Origin: Haloarcula marina
GTDB taxonomy: Archaea; Halobacteriota; Halobacteria; Halobacteriales; Haloarculaceae
NCBI RefSeq assembly: GCF_024218775.1
Contig: NZ_CP100404.1
Location: 1,302,001 to 1,366,000, forward strand
Direction: 5' to 3'
DNA: 64,000 nt
Under the pieces are notes generated by a model that was not told the DNA's origin, searched no databases, and saw nothing but the letters and a program-made list of their open reading frames with translations. This document shows positions 10,023-18,673 of the stretch, piece by piece. A program made the position numbers and the translations under genes. Every line of letters starts with the position of its first letter. The stretch's first letter is position 1.

Positions 10023-10739
10023 ATGAGTAACACGGTGGGCGTCGTCGGCGACGCCGGTGTCGCCGAGGCGGTTCGGGACGCTGGCTACTCGGTCGTTCGG
10101 GGGACCCCTGAGGACGTGCCGACCGCCGACAGCGTCGTCGCTGTCGGAAGCGACGCGGTGCGTGCCGTCGCCACGGCCGACGGCGATTCGCTCGTCCTCC
10201 CGGTCGACGCTGGTCGGGGCGTCCGCTCCGTTTCTCGGGCGGCCGTCGGGGACGCCGTGGACGCGCTCGACGACGCGACGGTGGAACGACACCCCGTGCT
10301 GTCGGTCACGGTCGCCGGAGAGCCAACCGGCATGGCCGTGTGGGATGTGACGGTCGTCACGGCCGACGCCGCCCACATCTCGGAGTACGCCATCCAGACG
10401 CCGACCGACGCCGTGGGCAAGTTCCGGGCCGACGGCGTCACGGTCGCGACGCCCGCCGGGTCACCCGGCTACGCCCGCCGCATCGGCGGGCCGATTCTCG
10501 CACCGTCGGACGCCGTCGGCGTCGTCGCACCCGTCGCGCCGTTCGCGACCAGTCCCGACCACTGGGTCCTCCCGATCGACGCCCTCTCGCTGTCGGTCGA
10601 GCGCGACGAGGCCACCGTCGCGCTGTTCGTCGACGGGACGCGACGGGGAACTGTCGACTGCGGGGACGCAGTGTCGCTCGCGCTGTCCGGCACCGCGCGA
10701 GTCGCGGTCGTCGGTGCGAGCCGCTCGCGCTTCGACTGA
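10023..10739 (+). CDS. NAD kinase-like protein lacking the catalytic motifs
   Basis: 238 residues. The C-terminal half matches the NAD kinase fold, notably DGVTVATPAGSPGYARRIGGPILAP (about 138-161; the usual form is DGxxxxTPTGSTAYxxSxGGP). However, the N-terminal GGDGT catalytic loop is replaced by AVGSDAV (40-46), and the usual [L/N]NE motif reads VWDV (106-109). This suggests loss of kinase activity, or a different phosphate-binding role. ATG at 10023 directly follows the intergenic spacer. Because haloarchaea usually have another intact NAD kinase, this is likely a diverged paralogue; no operon partner is visible. Confidence 0.7.
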   Translation: MSNTVGVVGDAGVAEAVRDAGYSVVRGTPEDVPTADSVVAVGSDAVRAVATADGDSLVLPVDAGRGVRSVSRAAVGDAVDALDDATVERHPVLSVTVAGEPTGMAVWDVTVVTADAAHISEYAIQTPTDAVGKFRADGVTVATPAGSPGYARRIGGPILAPSDAVGVVAPVAPFATSPDHWVLPIDALSLSVERDEATVALFVDGTRRGTVDCGDAVSLALSGTARVAVVGASRSRFD

Positions 10740-10789: not shown

Positions 10790-11251
10790 ATGCAGCCATC
10801 CGTAACCCTCTTCGGGCCACTGGACACCATTATGGGGAGTACGGCTCCCGGGGACGTGCTCGTTATCGAGTATATCCTCTTCGTGCTGGTGGTTGCCAAC
10901 TTCGGGACGCGCCTGTTGGCCCACAGACGACAGACTGCGCAGTACGCCGACGGCGGCGCGGACGAAATCAGTCGGCATCCGGCCCACCTCGCAAGTAACG
11001 TCTTGCTGGTCGTCACGTCGTTGTACTACATGACGCTCGCTCACCACGGCGGCATGGTCATGTCCGTTCTCGTCCTCGGGATGGTCATCACCGACTTCTT
11101 CGAGTTCGAGTCGCGAAAAGTCGAAGCCCGCAGTGACCTCGCGCTCGAACGCCCGAAGGGCGCGGTCACCGCGGCGATGGTCGTCCTGCTGTACGCGAGC
11201 TATCAGAGCCTTTTCTGGCTCATCAAGGCTCCGTGGCAGGCCATCGTCTGA
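10790..11251 (+). CDS. Haloarchaeal membrane protein linked to the cytochrome bc cluster (DUF7313-like)
   Basis: 153 residues with three or four hydrophobic segments (about 23-40, 68-85, 88-105 and 127-145) and several histidines (HRR, HPAH, HHGG). The N-terminus MQPSVTLFGPLDTIMG is distinctive. I recall this protein as one of a set of haloarchaea-only families catalogued under consecutive DUF numbers around the Rieske/cytochrome b genes; the number is from memory and not checked. It faces the minus-strand respiratory operon with a 262-nt gap between the two stop codons. Function unknown; membrane subunit or assembly factor is inferred from location. Confidence 0.6.
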   Translation: MQPSVTLFGPLDTIMGSTAPGDVLVIEYILFVLVVANFGTRLLAHRRQTAQYADGGADEISRHPAHLASNVLLVVTSLYYMTLAHHGGMVMSVLVLGMVITDFFEFESRKVEARSDLALERPKGAVTAAMVVLLYASYQSLFWLIKAPWQAIV

Positions 11252-11513: not shown

Positions 11514-11783
11514 TTACGCCGACCGCTCGTCGAGGTACTCGCGCAGTTCTTCGAGCAGCGGAATGAGGACCCAGAACGTCAGGGCCCCGAAGATGGCGAA
11601 CCAGAAGAACACGTCCATCAGGGCCAGTGCGATGCTGTCGAACAGGGTGGGCTCCTCGACGGTCACCTCGCCGATGAGCTGTGCTCCCTCGAAGCTCGGT
11701 GTGCGGTACCAGCCCGCGATAGTCATCCAGCCGAGTCCGCCGACCATCAGCGCGCCGAACCCTTTGATGAACTCGTCAGCCAT
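11514..11783 (-). CDS. Small two-helix membrane protein of the cytochrome bc cluster (DUF7314-like)
   Basis: 89 residues. Two hydrophobic helices are seen: residues 9-25 (FGALMVGGLGWMTIAGW) and about 52-74 (LALMDVFFWFAIFGALTFWVLIPLL), with acidic loops. The start codon lies inside the end of the preceding minus-strand gene (8-nt overlap), so it is co-translated with it. It is the last gene of the petA-petB-petD operon as read leftward. The family is haloarchaea-specific and uncharacterised; a small supernumerary subunit of the quinol-oxidising complex is the most economical idea, but it is inference. Confidence 0.65.
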   Translation of the reverse strand: MADEFIKGFGALMVGGLGWMTIAGWYRTPSFEGAQLIGEVTVEEPTLFDSIALALMDVFFWFAIFGALTFWVLIPLLEELREYLDERSA

Positions 11784-12117
11784 TATCTGAGTGTTCGTTA
11801 GCGTCGTCTTTAGACTTTCCCATCTCCTCGGTGCGAAATCGCGTCGAGAAGGCGTAGACGACGGTCCCCAACAGGATGAGGCCGACGCCGCCGATAGCCA
11901 CCGGCACGTCTATCTCCGACGCTGGGGCGGAGGCGCGGTCGGTGGCGACGTCGACGAGGATGAACCCGCCGACGACGCTGAACACCGCGATGAGCGTCGA
12001 GAACACCGTGACCGTCTTGTAGACCCGTAGCGGCACGACCACGTCACGCGACCCCTCGGCGCTCCGCACGCCAGTGAGGTCCGGGTCGTCCTCCGTGGCG
12101 GATTGGTCCTCGGTCAT
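11776..12117 (-). CDS. Small membrane protein of the cytochrome bc cluster (DUF7315-like)
   Basis: 113 residues. The N-terminal 30 residues are acidic and disordered, followed by two membrane helices (about 33-53 TVTVFSTLIAVFSVVGGFIL and 70-88 VAIGGVGLILLGTVVYAF) and a charged tail. ATG at 12117 is chosen over the GTG two codons upstream. It overlaps the following gene by 8 nt and follows petD after a 111-nt gap, so it may have its own promoter or be a distal operon gene. Function unknown. Confidence 0.62.
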   Translation of the reverse strand: MTEDQSATEDDPDLTGVRSAEGSRDVVVPLRVYKTVTVFSTLIAVFSVVGGFILVDVATDRASAPASEIDVPVAIGGVGLILLGTVVYAFSTRFRTEEMGKSKDDANEHSDNG

Positions 12118-12228
12118 TACCACCGCTAGGGCTGGGAGCTACTTTACTGCGGCGAGACGGGGACAATGCGTCGCCGCGCGTCGCTCGCGAACGGTAGTGT
12201 GTGGCGGGAAAACGGGTAGACGAACGCG

Positions 12229-12996
12229 TTACTTCGGCGGGCGGAGTCGGTAGTACCGGCGGTTGAGGTCGAACATGTAGCCCTCGCGCATCGTCTTCAG
12301 CACCGCGTAGGTGATGGTGCCCGCGACGATGGGGACGAGGAACGTCAGGTCGAACAGCAGGTGCGAGTCCATCGGGATGAGGTTCTTGATGGACAGCGCG
12401 GCGATGGTCAGGCTGAAGATGACGCCAGCCATCCCGACGGCGGCCCAGAAGGGCTGCTCGACGGGGCGGCGCGCCGACCCCTTGTTGAGGAAGGGGACGA
12501 TAGCGACGAAGCCGACGACGACCACGTTCGCCAGCACGCCGTAGGTCCGGTCGGCCATCAGTTTCTGTCCGCCGAGGATGGACAGGTCCGGGTTCAGCGG
12601 CCCGAGTTTGAGCAGGCCGAACGACCAGTAGAGGTACCAGTCGGGCAGGATGATGGCGGGGGTCACGCCGGAGTTCGCCGCGTTGGGCATCTCCGGCGGG
12701 AGCGCCGCCGAGAGGAACAGAATCATGCCGACGAAGAAACTCGTCAGCGCGAGGTTCCGAATCATCTCGTGGGGCCACGCCGGGAACGCCAGCACGTCGC
12801 GTTCGACGTAGTCGGACTCCTGTCGGAGGTCCTGGTCCTCGCGGCGGGCACGCTCGAAGTACTCGTAGGTGAGCCGCGAGAGGCCCTGCGACCGCTGTTT
12901 GCGCTCGGACCACGTGGGGGTCTCGTCGTCAGGCGCGACGATGCCACCGCCCGAGCCGTCTGTGCGAACGTCGTCGTTGGTTTCGTTGTCGCTCAT
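12229..12996 (-). CDS. petD: Cytochrome b C-terminal half (subunit IV / PetD-like)
   Basis: 255 residues. After a 75-residue acidic cytoplasmic extension come the subunit-IV helices. The quinol-oxidation (Qo) motif appears as LPDWYLYW (PDWY in place of PEWY; PDWY is also seen in menaquinol-type enzymes), followed by SFGLLKLGPLNPD. Further helices follow at about 135-150, 165-188 and 207-230. With PetB it makes a split cytochrome b as in b6f complexes. It starts 4 nt after the petB stop, so the genes are co-transcribed. It forms the Qo site that passes electrons to the Rieske protein. Confidence 0.88.
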   Translation of the reverse strand: MSDNETNDDVRTDGSGGGIVAPDDETPTWSERKQRSQGLSRLTYEYFERARREDQDLRQESDYVERDVLAFPAWPHEMIRNLALTSFFVGMILFLSAALPPEMPNAANSGVTPAIILPDWYLYWSFGLLKLGPLNPDLSILGGQKLMADRTYGVLANVVVVGFVAIVPFLNKGSARRPVEQPFWAAVGMAGVIFSLTIAALSIKNLIPMDSHLLFDLTFLVPIVAGTITYAVLKTMREGYMFDLNRRYYRLRPPK

Positions 12997-13000
12997 TGTA

Positions 13001-13804
13001 TCAGTGTGGTTCCGCGATGCCCTGCATCCAGACGATGCCGATGTGGACGGCGATGAGCGCCGTCGTGATGAACGGCAGGAAGAACACGTGCAGGATGTAC
13101 ATCCGTTGCAGCGTGGACTGCGAGAGTGTGAACCCGCCGAACATCAGTTGTGCCACCCATTCGCCGATGAGCGGGATGGAAAGCGACATCTCGACGCCTA
13201 TCTGTCCGGCCCAGAACGATAGCTGGCTCCACGGGAGCAGGTAACCGGTGTACCCGAACACCAGCGTCAGGGAGATGAGGATGATGCCGATGAGCCAGTT
13301 GAGTTCGCGGGGCTCCTTGTACGCGCCCGTGAAGTAGACGCGGAGCATGTGGAGGAACACCGCCGCGACCATGACCTGCGCGGCCCAGCGGTGGACCGAC
13401 CGCAGGAAGTAGCCGAGGTTCAACTGGCCCATGATGAGCAGCACCGAGTCGTACGCGACGGTCGGCGACCCGTCGGCGGCGGCCGCCGCGGGCGCGTAGT
13501 AGAAGCCGAGTAGCGCGCCGGAGATGGCGGCCACGACGTACGCGATGGTCGAGAACGACCCGAGCGCGTACAGCGGGTACCAGTACCAGAACTTGTTGTC
13601 GAGGTTGTACTGCTCGGTGTGGCTCTTCGGCATCTGCATGTTGACCTTGTAGTAGAGGTCCTCGAGGATTTCGAGGTAGTCAACGACGCGCAGGCGCTTA
13701 TCGAGCCAGATGAGCGCGGTCAGATAAATCGATTCGAGCGGCGATAGCTCGCGCGATTCCATCCAGCCTTTGTGGTCGTGTTCGTCTTTGCGTTCGAGAC
13801 TCAT
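13001..13804 (-). CDS. petB: Cytochrome b N-terminal half (b6-like, di-heme)
   Basis: 267 residues with four core membrane helices. Two histidine pairs ligate the b hemes: H138/H152 and H239/H254. The second pair is 15 residues apart, as in cytochrome b6, whereas bc1-type cytochrome b has 14; this supports a b6f-like origin. GYTGYLLPWSQLSFWA (184-199) is the conserved region before the Qo-side helix. The N-terminal 70 residues are amphipathic and lie before the first transmembrane helix. No cysteine is found at the N-terminus that could anchor the extra c-type heme of b6f. It is 3 nt downstream of petA. Confidence 0.92.
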   Translation of the reverse strand: MSLERKDEHDHKGWMESRELSPLESIYLTALIWLDKRLRVVDYLEILEDLYYKVNMQMPKSHTEQYNLDNKFWYWYPLYALGSFSTIAYVVAAISGALLGFYYAPAAAAADGSPTVAYDSVLLIMGQLNLGYFLRSVHRWAAQVMVAAVFLHMLRVYFTGAYKEPRELNWLIGIILISLTLVFGYTGYLLPWSQLSFWAGQIGVEMSLSIPLIGEWVAQLMFGGFTLSQSTLQRMYILHVFFLPFITTALIAVHIGIVWMQGIAEPH

Positions 13805-13807
13805 TGT

Positions 13808-14668
13808 CTATGCCTGTGGGGGGCGTGGCAGTGCCACGAACTGTTTCTGGACGGGACTGAACGGGTTGTACACGGATTGGTGGCACTGACAGTAAATTCT
13901 GTCCTCTGCGCCGAAGTTCACGCTCCCCTCCTGCGTCTTGAAGCCCGGGACACAGCAGAAGTGCGTACACTTGTTCAGCCACGCGATGAACCCGTCTTGG
14001 GTCGCTTCCGAGATGAAGTTCTGGATGTTGTTGGGCAGGTCACCGTACTGGCCCTCCCCGTTTGCCATCTTCTCGATTTCGACGGATCGGAGAATCTGTA
14101 TCGGAACGCCACTGTCCTCGTCGCCCGCGCGCCAGTTGGCGCTCGCGGGTTTCCCGAGGCCGGACCGTCCGATACCGTTGCCCCACTCTTGGTAGTCGTC
14201 GAACATGTCGACGGTGAGCGGTGCGCCTCGCTCCACCTCTCCCTGCCACGCGAACGACCCCGGACTGTTCAGGAACGTGTTCGTTCGCTCGGCCTGCGGG
14301 TAGATACCGGGCGAACTCTGAATACCGCAGTACTGGAACCACGCGGAGGAGTAGTCGATTCCGCTGCCGCCGAAGTCCGGCGCGATTGCGACGCCCGCTT
14401 CGGGGTCGAACTCCGGCCAGAGGCCGGATATCTCGCCGCCGTTGATTTCGATGGGGATGATGGGCATCCCACGCGGTGCTGGACCGTCGGTGTTCTCGAC
14501 GCCGACGAACGTAGTCGTCCCGCCGCCTTCTCCGGCGGCGTCAGTCGTTGCGTCGACGGCCGCGGCACCGCCGACTCCGACGCTGGAGAGCGCGGCGCTG
14601 CCGACGACTCCCTTTACGAAGCGCCGACGACCTGTCTCGGCTGGATACTTGTCTTCGTCTAGTGGCAT
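13808..14668 (-). CDS. petA: Rieske iron-sulfur subunit of the cytochrome b complex
   Basis: 286 residues. The N-terminus has a twin-arginine signal/anchor, GRRRFVKGVVGSAALSSVG (13-31). The C-terminus carries the cluster motifs C234-T-H236-F-C238-C239 and C260-Q-C262-H263. C234, H236, C260 and H263 should ligate the [2Fe-2S] centre, with C239 and C262 forming the disulfide; C238 is an additional neighbouring cysteine. A long insertion (about 60-230) between anchor and cluster domain makes it larger than mitochondrial-type proteins. It accepts electrons from menaquinol at the Qo site; the halocyanin encoded two genes upstream is the likely next acceptor. Confidence 0.92.
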   Translation of the reverse strand: MPLDEDKYPAETGRRRFVKGVVGSAALSSVGVGGAAAVDATTDAAGEGGGTTTFVGVENTDGPAPRGMPIIPIEINGGEISGLWPEFDPEAGVAIAPDFGGSGIDYSSAWFQYCGIQSSPGIYPQAERTNTFLNSPGSFAWQGEVERGAPLTVDMFDDYQEWGNGIGRSGLGKPASANWRAGDEDSGVPIQILRSVEIEKMANGEGQYGDLPNNIQNFISEATQDGFIAWLNKCTHFCCVPGFKTQEGSVNFGAEDRIYCQCHQSVYNPFSPVQKQFVALPRPPQA

Positions 14669-14669
14669 A

Positions 14670-15089
14670 TTACTTCTTGTAGTAGGGGTAGACTGCGCGT
14701 TTGATCGTGTCGACCAACTGTTCCTCGTCGGCGAGAGAGGCCCCGTCGACGTCCTCCTGCCGGATGTAGAGGTCCTCCCACTTGCGACGGCGCTTCTTGA
14801 CGATCATCACGTCCGGGAGGAACTCCTTGCGGTACAGCAGCATGATGAACGCCAAGTCGAGGAAGATGACGGTCAGGACGCCGCCGAGGAACATGTTGGC
14901 CTCGATGAGTCGAACCGTCAGCGTCGTCCCGATACCGGACGCCCATCCGGTGAGCATCCCGTAGGTGAACAGGCCGACGAGGGCGACCTGAATGACCGTC
15001 AGCAGGACGATACCCATCGCGGCGGCCGTGCTCTCGCGCGGCGGTTCGTACCGGTGGATGTCGCCGTAGGTGGAGCCTTCGGACGCCAT
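14670..15089 (-). CDS. Membrane protein between halocyanin and Rieske genes (DUF7318-like)
   Basis: 139 residues with two hydrophobic helices (about 23-45 AAMGIVLLTVIQVALVGLFTYGM and 65-87 MFLGGVLTVIFLDLAFIMLL). A basic cytoplasmic stretch (KKRRRKW) and an acidic C-terminal tail ending YPYYKK follow. It overlaps the halocyanin stop by 1-3 nt and ends 1 nt before petA, so it is tightly inside the operon. No cofactor motif is visible. Its invariable position between the electron donor and acceptor genes in this cluster argues for a structural or docking role, which is inference. Confidence 0.68.
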   Translation of the reverse strand: MASEGSTYGDIHRYEPPRESTAAAMGIVLLTVIQVALVGLFTYGMLTGWASGIGTTLTVRLIEANMFLGGVLTVIFLDLAFIMLLYRKEFLPDVMIVKKRRRKWEDLYIRQEDVDGASLADEEQLVDTIKRAVYPYYKK

Positions 15090-15751
15090 CAGTTGTTCCC
15101 TCCGCTAGTGTGGGGCGATTCGCCGTACTTCAGTTGGAAGAACGTGAAGACGAGGGGGATGACCACCGCAAGCCCCGCGCCGAAGCCGACGTAGTGGGGC
15201 TGAATCGGGACGCCCGCGTAGTGGGGGTCCACCTCTTGCGGTCCGCCGCCACCGATTGTCTGGGTGGCGTAGTCCTCGCCGACGACGATTGCGCCCTTCA
15301 TCTGGAGACCCTCGTGGGGGGCACAGAAGTACGTGTAGACGCCGTCCTCCTCGAAGGTGTGCTCGTAGTTGACGCCAGCGTTCGCGACTGCGCTACCCGA
15401 ATCGATCGGGCCATCGCCGGTCGATTTGACGTTGTGGCCGCCGCCCTCGCCGGTCCACTCCCACTGGACAGTCGCGCCGTTGTCGACGTGGACGGCCGCG
15501 GGGCCGAATCCGTAGGCGCCGCCGTTCGCGTTGACACCGACTTCGACCGTCACGGTGTCCTGTCCGGTGGCGTCGACAGTGCTCGTCGGGCCGCCGAAGT
15601 TCCCGACTTGATCGAGATAGCCGCCGTAGTCCGGTGCAGTTTCGCCGCCGCCGCCGCCCTCTTCCTGGGCAGCGGTTGTCCCGGCGGCTCCGAGGGTGGC
15701 CGCAGCACCTGCGGCACCTCCTGCGGTCCGGACGAACTCCCGCCTGTTCAT
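15089..15751 (-). CDS. Halocyanin (blue copper protein) with C-terminal membrane anchor
   Basis: 220 residues. A Tat-like signal (NRREFVRTAGGAAGAAATLG) starts the protein and is followed by a Gly/Glu-rich linker. The plastocyanin-fold copper ligands are H106 (GGHNVKS), C143, H146 and M151 (FCAPHEGLQM). Residues 187-207 form a C-terminal membrane helix, so the copper domain is tethered to the outer face. It likely replaces cytochrome c as the acceptor from the Rieske/cytochrome b complex. ATG at 15751 begins the signal; the 60-nt gap to the upstream gene includes AT-rich GTTTATACAA on the minus strand, a possible internal promoter. Confidence 0.88.
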   Translation of the reverse strand: MNRREFVRTAGGAAGAAATLGAAGTTAAQEEGGGGGETAPDYGGYLDQVGNFGGPTSTVDATGQDTVTVEVGVNANGGAYGFGPAAVHVDNGATVQWEWTGEGGGHNVKSTGDGPIDSGSAVANAGVNYEHTFEEDGVYTYFCAPHEGLQMKGAIVVGEDYATQTIGGGGPQEVDPHYAGVPIQPHYVGFGAGLAVVIPLVFTFFQLKYGESPHTSGGNN

Positions 15752-15812
15752 ATACGTCCCGAAGTCAGGACTGTGTTTGTATAAACCCACCGGATACCGC
15801 CCGCAGGCACCG

Positions 15813-16664
15813 TCACGCACCGACTTCGTCGGTTTCGTTGGTCTCCGTCTCGTGCCCTCCGTTCTGGGGGTCGAGTTCGGGGACGAAGTCGGGCCGTTCG
15901 CCGTCTTCCAGGCCGACAGCGCGGAGTCGGTCCCGGTACTCCTCGGCGCGGAATTTATCGGAGAGGCGGGCGTTCGCGACGGTGAAAAAGAGCACCAGCG
16001 CGATGCCGACGAACGCGAGTCCGGCGACGAACAGCGCCACGATGTTGACTCCGGGACCGCCGACGACGCCCGCGACGGCCAGGACGCCGCCACCCAACAG
16101 CGCGAGGCCAGCGAGCAGTTGCGCGCCCGCGATGACCTGCAACATCCGGTTGCCGAGTTCGCCGCCGCCCTCCGGGACCTCGTCCGGTTCCGGGAGCGGG
16201 TTGTCGGGTACGCTCTCGGGCACGTCGTAGGAGTCCATCGAGCACAGCGCCACCGTCGGCTTCACGTCCCGGAGGACGGTGCCCTCGCCCTCCACGCTTC
16301 CGTCGGGGCGGACGATGGCGTATCCCTCGTCGGAGTATGCGAGGACGTGCGGCGGCGTGTGGTGGCGTTCGATGCGGGCGAACACGTCCCGACTGGACAC
16401 CCGATTTCGGAGGTCCTTCGTGACCCGGTCCAGCAACTCGTCGCCGGTAATCCACGTGTCGGCGTCGAAGGCCGCGTCCCACTCCTCGGGAGTCATCTCG
16501 GCCATGTCCGTCGGCCCGAAGTTGTCGAAGTCGTACTTCTCCTCGACTTGTTCGCGGAGCGCCGCGACGGACTGCTCGTCGGCGTCACCATCGCCGTCGA
16601 CTGTCTGGTCGGCCAGCGTCTCCGTCGCGTCGGTGTCCTGCTGTTCCTCAGACGGGTCGGCCAT
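15813..16664 (-). CDS. Acidic protein with two C-terminal membrane helices, first gene of the respiratory operon (DUF7319-like)
   Basis: 283 residues. The first 45 residues are an acidic, low-complexity tail. Residues about 45-165 form a soluble domain (EKYDFDNFGPTDMAEMTPEEW, then HHTPPHVLAYSDEGYAIVRPDG). Two membrane helices follow (about 182-205 and 208-230) and then an acidic C-terminus. ATG at 16664 is preferred to the upstream in-frame Met because the upstream codons are AT-rich promoter-like sequence. It is divergent from the 16800 gene. No known domain is recognised; it may be a regulator or assembly protein of the complex. Confidence 0.65.
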   Translation of the reverse strand: MADPSEEQQDTDATETLADQTVDGDGDADEQSVAALREQVEEKYDFDNFGPTDMAEMTPEEWDAAFDADTWITGDELLDRVTKDLRNRVSSRDVFARIERHHTPPHVLAYSDEGYAIVRPDGSVEGEGTVLRDVKPTVALCSMDSYDVPESVPDNPLPEPDEVPEGGGELGNRMLQVIAGAQLLAGLALLGGGVLAVAGVVGGPGVNIVALFVAGLAFVGIALVLFFTVANARLSDKFRAEEYRDRLRAVGLEDGERPDFVPELDPQNGGHETETNETDEVGA

Positions 16665-16799
16665 TGTCGGAGATACGGTTGGGGTACCGAAAAACGTGTC
16701 GTGACCGACCGTCGCCGCCCACTGCACACGAGGGCGACGGATACCGCTCGCAACGCGGCGTTCGGACAGGTTTTACCGCTCGCTCGCTAACGCCCGCTC

Positions 16800-17282
16800 A
16801 TGGTGTCCGAGAGCGTCGTCGCGAGCGTCGCGCTGGTGTCGGTGACACTCAGTTTCCCGTGTTTCGTCTACGGCGCGTACTACATCATCGAGACGGAACC
16901 GGTCACGTGGGACGTGTTGGTGCACCACCTGAAGTTCGTGGTGACCGGCCTCGCGCTGACGACGGTTCCGATGGTGTTCTGGATGGCCCCGCGACTCCCG
17001 GACCAACTGGGCGGCCTGTCGGCGGTCCACGCGTACCTCGGTCTGCAAGCGTACGCGCTGTTGCTGTTCGGCGGGACCGGCATCGTCCGCATCTTTCGGG
17101 CCAAGCGCGAACACGACCTGTACAACGACTACGACGAGGACCTCTTGCTCGACGAAATCGGCGGCGAGCAGATGAGCCACTGGCGCTCCCGCCTCCGCAT
17201 CGGCGTCTTCGGCTACGTCATCTTCTGGATGCTCGCGTACGTCGTCGGCGCGGCGCGCTACGTCCTCCGTTACCTCGTCTGA
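16800..17282 (+). CDS. Four-helix membrane protein beside the respiratory operon (DUF7321-like)
   Basis: 160 residues with four hydrophobic helices (about 4-26, 39-60, 75-98 and 132-156). Histidines H41 and H42 (VLVHHLKF) and H76 (VHAYLG) lie in or near helices and could face a heme or quinone, but no established heme-b pattern can be asserted. It is transcribed away from the petABD operon through a shared 135-nt region. In my memory of haloarchaeal genomes this gene accompanies the cytochrome bc genes; this needs checking. Function unknown. Confidence 0.6.
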   Translation: MVSESVVASVALVSVTLSFPCFVYGAYYIIETEPVTWDVLVHHLKFVVTGLALTTVPMVFWMAPRLPDQLGGLSAVHAYLGLQAYALLLFGGTGIVRIFRAKREHDLYNDYDEDLLLDEIGGEQMSHWRSRLRIGVFGYVIFWMLAYVVGAARYVLRYLV

Positions 17283-17878: not shown

Positions 17879-18565
17879 TTACGCCCACGCCTCGCCGGAG
17901 GCGAGGTCGGTGTCGCTGTCGCCTTTCTCCGACGGGCAGATGTCCGCGAGCACGCACGCTTCGCAGTCGGCCGAGCGCGCGCCACACACCGCGCGGCCGT
18001 GATCGATGAGCAGGTGGGTGAACTGCTGCCACTCGTCTTCGGGAACCACGTCGAGGAGGTCCTGTTCGATGGCTTCGGGCCGCTCCTCGTCGGTCAGACC
18101 CAGACGGCGTGAGAGTCGCTGGACGTGTGTGTCGACGACGATGCCCTCCACGATGTCGTGGCCGTGTTGCAGGACGACGTTGGCGGTCTTTCGGCCGACG
18201 CCGGGGAGGTCGGTCAGCGCCGTCATCGTGTCGGGGACTTCGCCGTCGTGTTCTTCGACGATTTTCTCGCCGATACCCTTGAGGTAGCCGCCCTTGTTGT
18301 TGTGGAACGTGATGCCGTAGATGTCCTCGGCGAGTTGCTCCTCGCTCGCCTCAGCGTAGTCCTCCGGAGACCGGTACTTCTCGAAGAGGTCTGCAGTCAC
18401 TTCGTTCACTCGCTCGTCGGTGCACTGCGCCGAGAGGACGACGGCGACGAGCAGTTCGAGCCGGTTCGCGTAGTTCAGCGAGATGGTCGAATCGGGGTAC
18501 TCCTCGTGCAGTCTGTCGACGACTTCCGTGGCCTGCGCCTCGCGCGAATCGAGCGGCGTTCCCAT
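17879..18565 (-). CDS. nth: Endonuclease III (DNA glycosylase/AP lyase)
   Basis: 228 residues. The helix-hairpin-helix motif is LPGVGRKTANVVL with the catalytic lysine K126, and the catalytic aspartate is D145 in VVDTHVQRL. The [4Fe-4S] loop has C194-x6-C201-x2-C204-x5-C210, the canonical spacing. It removes oxidised pyrimidines and cleaves the abasic site in base-excision repair. ATG at 18565 (MGTPLDSREA) is used in preference to a GTG two codons upstream. It is monocistronic and convergent with the stress-protein gene. Confidence 0.93.
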   Translation of the reverse strand: MGTPLDSREAQATEVVDRLHEEYPDSTISLNYANRLELLVAVVLSAQCTDERVNEVTADLFEKYRSPEDYAEASEEQLAEDIYGITFHNNKGGYLKGIGEKIVEEHDGEVPDTMTALTDLPGVGRKTANVVLQHGHDIVEGIVVDTHVQRLSRRLGLTDEERPEAIEQDLLDVVPEDEWQQFTHLLIDHGRAVCGARSADCEACVLADICPSEKGDSDTDLASGEAWA

Positions 18566-18673
18566 ACCCACTCGACTGTGCGGAACCGACTTTGTGCTAT
18601 CGCTCCCGGCGAGTGAGGCGGGTCACGTCGCGTCGGTGTGAACGCTCCGGCCCGCGCCCGGTCAGCATGGTAG

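Follow-up and report, generated by a model that had tools for sequence, protein, structure and literature searches.

Six protein families without assigned function are present or absent together with a probable haloarchaeal split-cytochrome b Rieske complex

According to the part of PMC8305020 available to us, haloarchaea carry a PetA/PetB/PetD complex that resembles cytochrome b6f, is lost in about one third of the haloarchaea and has a halocyanin as its probable acceptor. The same part describes haloarchaeal complex III as biochemically little known and electron flow in the third or so of species without the complex as an open question. Two further systems stand close to it. The haloarchaeal nar operon, ORF1-narB-narC-narG-narH, begins with an open reading frame (ORF) for a small protein described as resembling electron-transport proteins (PMC2483277). 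The Rieske subunit QcrA of the actinobacterial bcc complex has three transmembrane (TM) helices and needs the general secretory (Sec) route for TM1-2 and twin-arginine translocation (Tat) for TM3 (PMC5449189). Here we analysed the petABD locus of Haloarcula marina within a window, the whole stretch of 64,000 nucleotides at forward-strand positions 1,302,001-1,366,000 of NZ_CP100404.1 (GCF_024218775.1); all coordinates below are window positions.

The locus comprises ten ORFs. DUF7319, halocyanin (hcp), DUF7318, petA, petB, petD, DUF7315 and DUF7314 form a minus-strand run of eight genes, flanked by plus-strand DUF7321 on one side and plus-strand DUF7313 on the other, which are separate transcription units in Haloarcula marina (Table 1). 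The six uncharacterised proteins belong to the Pfam families of these names (E 4e-32 to 3e-95), to which Pfam assigns no function. The block very probably encodes the haloarchaeal split-cytochrome-b Rieske complex (complex III), a menaquinol:halocyanin oxidoreductase, together with six dedicated lineage-specific proteins. The complex itself is already known; apparently new are the assignment of the DUF families to it, the behaviour of the block as a unit and the reading of DUF7318 as part of a split QcrA, none of which we found in the literature searched. The part of PMC8305020 available to us names neither the six families nor their strict co-occurrence nor the block as a unit, and a search for literature on the DUF names returned none.

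Genome-wide searches covered PetB, DUF7318, DUF7321, DUF7313 and DUF7319; DUF7314, DUF7315 and PetD are known from the locus only. DUF7318 scored above the cut-off in 286 of 391 genomes of the class. A full-length PetB orthologue (70-100% identity) was present in all 52 DUF7318-positive genomes tested and in none of the 103 genomes without any DUF7318 match; the nearest thing in the latter is a fused cytochrome b of nar type (37-45% identity), present in a few. Likewise, DUF7321, DUF7313 and DUF7319 were each found in 0 of the 75 petB-less genomes searched. The negative genomes are spread over families f1, f2, f3, f10 and f11, all of which except f11 hold positives too, indicating that they do not stem from a single event. 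Co-retention extends to genes that have left the locus. petA lies off-locus in family f4, which is of Haloferax type, and in family f5, and it was carried elsewhere in 24/24 such genomes tested; PetA was found in none of four petB-less genomes tested. DUF7313 is unlinked yet kept in genome G109, about 180 kb away, and in G021, on another contig. We also noticed that petA matches outside the operon at L153 (G142) and at G288:C1:2992218-2993051 cross one in-frame TGA; each may be a pseudogene, and a fused start region and an error in the assembly are the other possible causes.

Inspection of petB-less genomes revealed clean empty sites. In 22 of 30 such genomes the genes for Nth and NAD kinase, the outer neighbours of the block, are separated by 64-835 bp with no block gene between them; G004 (443 bp) and G129 (115 bp) bring the number to 24, and G222 shows the same arrangement with a distance of 1.1 kb. 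The missing piece starts at DUF7321 and ends at DUF7313, and therefore both plus-strand flank genes are part of the unit. The whole block, these two included, is thus present or absent as a single unit. The shared address in members of the same family suggests that absence reflects loss rather than non-acquisition.

Gene order was surveyed in 61 genomes from 58 genera and at 80 named loci. The order DUF7319-Hcp-DUF7318-(PetA)-PetB-PetD-DUF7315-DUF7314 is almost invariant in the genomes, and the named loci agree. DUF7314 and DUF7315 are in order at 58/61 loci each, DUF7321 stands divergently at one end in 57/61 and DUF7313 at the opposite end in 46/61. As the unrelated nth (53/61) and NAD kinase gene (43/61) are linked about as often, linkage by itself is weak evidence for DUF7321 and DUF7313; for these two we rejected an argument from linkage alone and relied on co-occurrence and the empty sites instead. 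The same counts would fit genomic hitch-hiking, in which the DUF genes remain neighbours simply because the region rearranges slowly. This explanation is very improbable and largely refuted: an Nth homologue was present in 48/48 genomes searched, of which almost all lack petB, but no DUF tested occurs where PetB is missing; the block vanishes exactly between nth and the NAD kinase gene; and DUF7313 and PetA are retained even when unlinked. The preliminary description of the locus had proposed that the small proteins are subunits or assembly factors, to be doubted if their genes were absent or unlinked in most genomes with petABD. The comparison of gene order across haloarchaea that it called for has now been run, and co-occurrence, order and empty sites all speak against such absence or unlinking; the perfect PetB/DUF7318 co-occurrence, the conserved order and the clean empty sites support the proposal well.

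Comparison of the core proteins with cytochrome b6f of cyanobacteria and chloroplasts showed both likeness and difference. Cytochrome b is split in both, and the heme ligands of PetB, H138/H152 and H239/H254, have the same spacing of 13 and 14 residues between them; conservation of these four histidines places the protein, on this feature, in the Rieske/cytochrome b superfamily. A Rieske protein with both cluster-binding boxes encoded alongside, and PDWY as a variant of the PEWY-type Qo motif, agree with this superfamily too. In contrast to b6f, the haloarchaeal block lacks cytochrome f, has PDWY in place of PEWY as the quinol-oxidation (Qo) motif of PetD (PDWYLYWSFGLL is conserved in 61 aligned PetD) and includes the extra DUF proteins. 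The whole PetB sequence of the window contains no cysteine and hence none for covalent heme ci. No match to PetG/L/M/N-type small subunits was found among the ten proteins, ORFs below 45-60 amino acids not having been searched. The description of the complex as b6f-like thus stands for the split cytochrome b and the ligand spacing and falls short for cytochrome f and the heme-ci cysteine; without these two the complex is not a b6f complex in the strict sense.

PetA alone scores under the Pfam Rieske cut-off (E=0.012). Rieske models match 15/15 members of its family (best 1e-10), and both cluster-binding boxes (CTHxCC, CxCHxS) are conserved in 15 aligned PetA. The first box of the window protein (13808-14668), CTHFCC, is unusual in having one extra cysteine, and the second retains S-x-Y. 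This element is associated with high-potential clusters, even though the haloarchaeal quinone is menaquinone. The CxxCH motif of c-type heme is absent from all ten proteins, and on that basis no cytochrome f is encoded, as the preliminary description had stated. Its further suggestion that the halocyanin is the likely acceptor agrees with this absence, with the copper ligands (HN..C..H..M) conserved across homologues, with the TM helix at residues 187-205 and with PMC8305020.

In the mechanism that we propose, menaquinol would be oxidised at an outer site formed by PetB and PetD with the PDWY motif. One electron would traverse the membrane via the two b hemes, and the other would move to the PetA Rieske cluster and then to the operon halocyanin. 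The halocyanin, held at the membrane through its C-terminal helix, would stand in for cytochrome c1/f and pass electrons to terminal oxidases encoded elsewhere. DUF7318, inserted by Sec, would hold the Tat-exported Rieske protein, DUF7318 and PetA together corresponding to one QcrA.

The relation of DUF7318 to QcrA came from profile searches. The NCBIfam model QcrA_actin matches 20/20 DUF7318 members scanned (best 1.8e-5), the window protein covering positions 27-99, and Pfam QcrA_N matches 12/20 (best 2e-3); these matches are above noise but near it, because unrelated models score about 2e-3. In solved QcrA chains from the PDB, TM2 is followed by LYTKKFIPQEISIQDRH, and DUF7318 has LYRKEFLPDVMIVKKRR at the equivalent place. 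The nar operon supplied a second link. An ORF1 of about 190 amino acids lies directly upstream of the nar-type Rieske gene, and the final 85 residues of its product align with DUF7318 (hhalign 96.9%, P=2e-10, where controls gave P>=0.02); the genes that follow are Rieske, cytochrome b, molybdoenzyme and FeS subunit, as in the operon of PMC2483277. One nar-type Rieske protein, encoded directly downstream of a DUF7318-like ORF1, matches QcrA 100-315 at 1.8e-32. With the DUF7318-type part at 27-99, two neighbouring genes therefore tile one QcrA. By sequence, DUF7318 and the ORF1 product of the haloarchaeal nar operon are homologues, and DUF7318 is probably a split-off, separately encoded Rieske anchor hairpin, the counterpart of the QcrA N-terminal hairpin. 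Given the Tat motif at the start of haloarchaeal PetA, the split would separate the Sec from the Tat route.

Each of these relatives differs from the haloarchaeal block. The nar operon likewise has its DUF7318 homologue directly before the Rieske gene, but its cytochrome b is fused, its ORF1 is longer by an additional N-terminal half, a molybdoenzyme gene comes after them, and the other five DUF families were not detected around nar. DUF7318 corresponds to the two-helix N-terminal part of QcrA with the cytoplasmic motif after TM2, and PetA supplies the Tat helix and the Rieske domain; unlike in the actinobacterial bcc complex, however, hairpin and Rieske protein are two genes (unlinked in 24 genomes of Haloferacaceae type), cytochrome cc is missing and cytochrome b is split. 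The preliminary description had raised a possible b6f-like supercomplex. The actinobacterial QcrA-type complex reportedly forms an obligate III-IV supercomplex, and the kinship of DUF7318 with QcrA would accord with a supercomplex of complex III, terminal oxidase and halocyanin in which the small proteins act as linkers. This arrangement is unlikely, given that no oxidase gene lies within the conserved block in the genomes and named loci surveyed and that the sequences give no evidence for linkers. Apart from this, nar-type ORF1-Rieske-cytochrome b sets at L163 (G002), L167 (G222) and L166 (G288) adjoin halocyanin genes and have no molybdoenzyme in reach; since G002 and G222 are without petABD, such sets may do the work of complex III in certain species regarded as having none. 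Genomes G152, G190 and G266 (genus g33) have 2-3 DUF7318 matches each, either extra copies or nar ORF1.

Several points weigh against the block as complex III with six dedicated proteins and with DUF7318 as a QcrA hairpin. The association of the DUF proteins with PetB derives from genomic evidence rather than co-purification. The operon halocyanin is the physiological acceptor only as far as we infer, because halocyanins form a large paralogous family. Direct comparison of DUF7318 with three solved actinobacterial QcrA sequences gave a modest hhalign P=0.006, and the combined profile gave P=7e-4 against a best value of 0.0017 among 40 block shuffles; a DUF7318 profile search of the PDB set did not recover QcrA or anything else significant. 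Finally, G021, a genome of 1.9 Mb that keeps PetB, PetD, PetA, DUF7318, DUF7315, DUF7314 and DUF7313, has neither DUF7319 nor DUF7321 anywhere in the genome, which means that at least one lineage can do without them.

The lack of DUF7319 and DUF7321 in G021 would also be in keeping with the small proteins being assembly or maturation factors (for Rieske/Tat insertion, heme or copper delivery, or quality control) and not subunits of the finished complex. This is a real possibility, if somewhat short of an even chance. None of the six DUF proteins has an obvious cofactor motif, and DUF7319 has a folded soluble domain without a solved relative, both of which suit such a role; DUF7318, on the other hand, resembles a structural part of QcrA, and DUF7313-7315 are retained even in the reduced genome G021. 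For DUF7313, DUF7314 and DUF7315 the probable role is that of additional subunits or of obligate assembly proteins; for DUF7319 and DUF7321 an accessory role is more likely. We propose tentatively, as a rather doubtful extension, that complex III is an enzyme of about 9-10 subunits, with the tethered copper protein as an integral part in place of cytochrome c1/f, a QcrA-type Rieske protein split in two, and DUF7313/7314/7315 (perhaps also 7319/7321) as stoichiometric subunits without counterpart in known bc/b6f complexes. With complex III and six dedicated proteins as the preferred reading, six Pfam families without a function would be assigned to complex III, and DUF7318 would gain an identity as the split QcrA anchor hairpin, found also as nar ORF1.

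AlphaFold2 models were examined for two of the families. DUF7321 is predicted as a four-helix bundle (mean confidence, pLDDT, 87), for which neither a structural match nor a significant hit in a PDB sequence search was obtained. DUF7319 is predicted as an alpha/beta domain plus a TM hairpin (pLDDT 86); this confident model has no significant structural match in the PDB, a Corynebacterium glutamicum supercomplex chain at E=1.6 being noise. Heme binding by DUF7321 through the invariant H43 and H77 was considered and rejected: in the model H43 lies close to the beginning of helix 37-68, and H77 close to that of helix 72-104, which runs antiparallel to the first. This puts the two histidines near opposite membrane faces, where they could not share one heme. 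Only one DUF7321 member matched Cytochrome_B561, at E=0.63. We also observed that DUF7315 and DUF7319 have in common a C-terminal TM helix and a [ST]xRFRxE motif (hhalign 88%, score 45 versus at most 31 in 30 shuffles), a similarity in sequence which suggests that the operon has related modules at both ends.

All ten ORFs were found at the positions given in the preliminary description, whose gene order and identities are real; its start for DUF7319, 16727, is too far upstream, as conservation is seen downstream of 16664 and the ATG at 16664 (283 amino acids) agrees better with homologues. Its overlaps of 1-8 nt for several pairs reduce to two, DUF7314/DUF7315 (8 nt) and halocyanin/DUF7318 (1 nt). 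The other junctions are gaps, of 1-4 nt in petA-petB-petD, 105 nt from petD to DUF7315 and 61 nt from halocyanin to DUF7319.

Table 1. Genes of the block and its outer neighbours in the window (aa, amino acids; E, profile match)
Feature	Position	Strand	Description	Profile match
NAD-kinase-like gene	10023..10739	+	outer boundary, outside block	PF20143 E=1e-12
DUF7313	10790..11251	+	153 aa, ~3-4 TM; block flank gene	PF23995 E=2e-62
DUF7314	11514..11783	-	89 aa, small membrane protein	PF23996 E=2e-39
DUF7315	11776..12123	-	115 aa, 2 TM	PF23997 E=4e-32
petD	12229..12996	-	255 aa; C-terminal half of split cytochrome b, PDWY Qo motif	PF00032 E=6e-8
petB	13001..13804	-	267 aa; cytochrome b6-like half	PF00033 E=4e-44
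petA	13808..14668	-	Tat-targeted Rieske [2Fe-2S] protein, CTHFCC...CQCHQSVY	
DUF7318	14670..15089	-	139 aa, 2-TM hairpin	PF24002 E=6e-65
halocyanin (hcp)	15089..15751	-	Tat signal, single cupredoxin domain, C-terminal TM helix	TIGR03102 E=4e-46
DUF7319	15813..16664	-	first operon gene, corrected start; soluble alpha/beta domain then TM hairpin	PF24003 E=3e-95
DUF7321	16800..17282	+	4-TM bundle, transcribed divergently	PF24007 E=8e-77
nth, endonuclease III	17879..18571	-	opposite outer boundary, outside block	TIGR01083 E=6e-70

The locus also bears on a published transcript. RNA-Seq of Haloferax volcanii, in the part of PMC6490895 available to us, yielded an eight-ORF transcript from HVO_0845 of 'conserved hypothetical proteins' ascribed to a 'common, yet unknown' process. 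petB is HVO_0842 and petD is HVO_0841 in the accessible part of PMC8305020. At every Haloferax locus examined we found a codirectional run of eight ORFs, DUF7319-Hcp-DUF7318-PetB-PetD-DUF7315-DUF7314-DUF7313, in which DUF7313 is codirectional with the operon as its last gene. The transcript from HVO_0845 fits this operon, the locus tags of the other members being deduced from the numbering, and the 'unknown process' thereby gains a candidate explanation; as H. volcanii is genetically tractable, the composition of the complex is open to direct study there. A second halocyanin match is present at one Haloferax locus (L129). Another eight-ORF transcript whose function is likewise unknown, beginning at HVO_2323, is given in the accessible part of PMC6490895.

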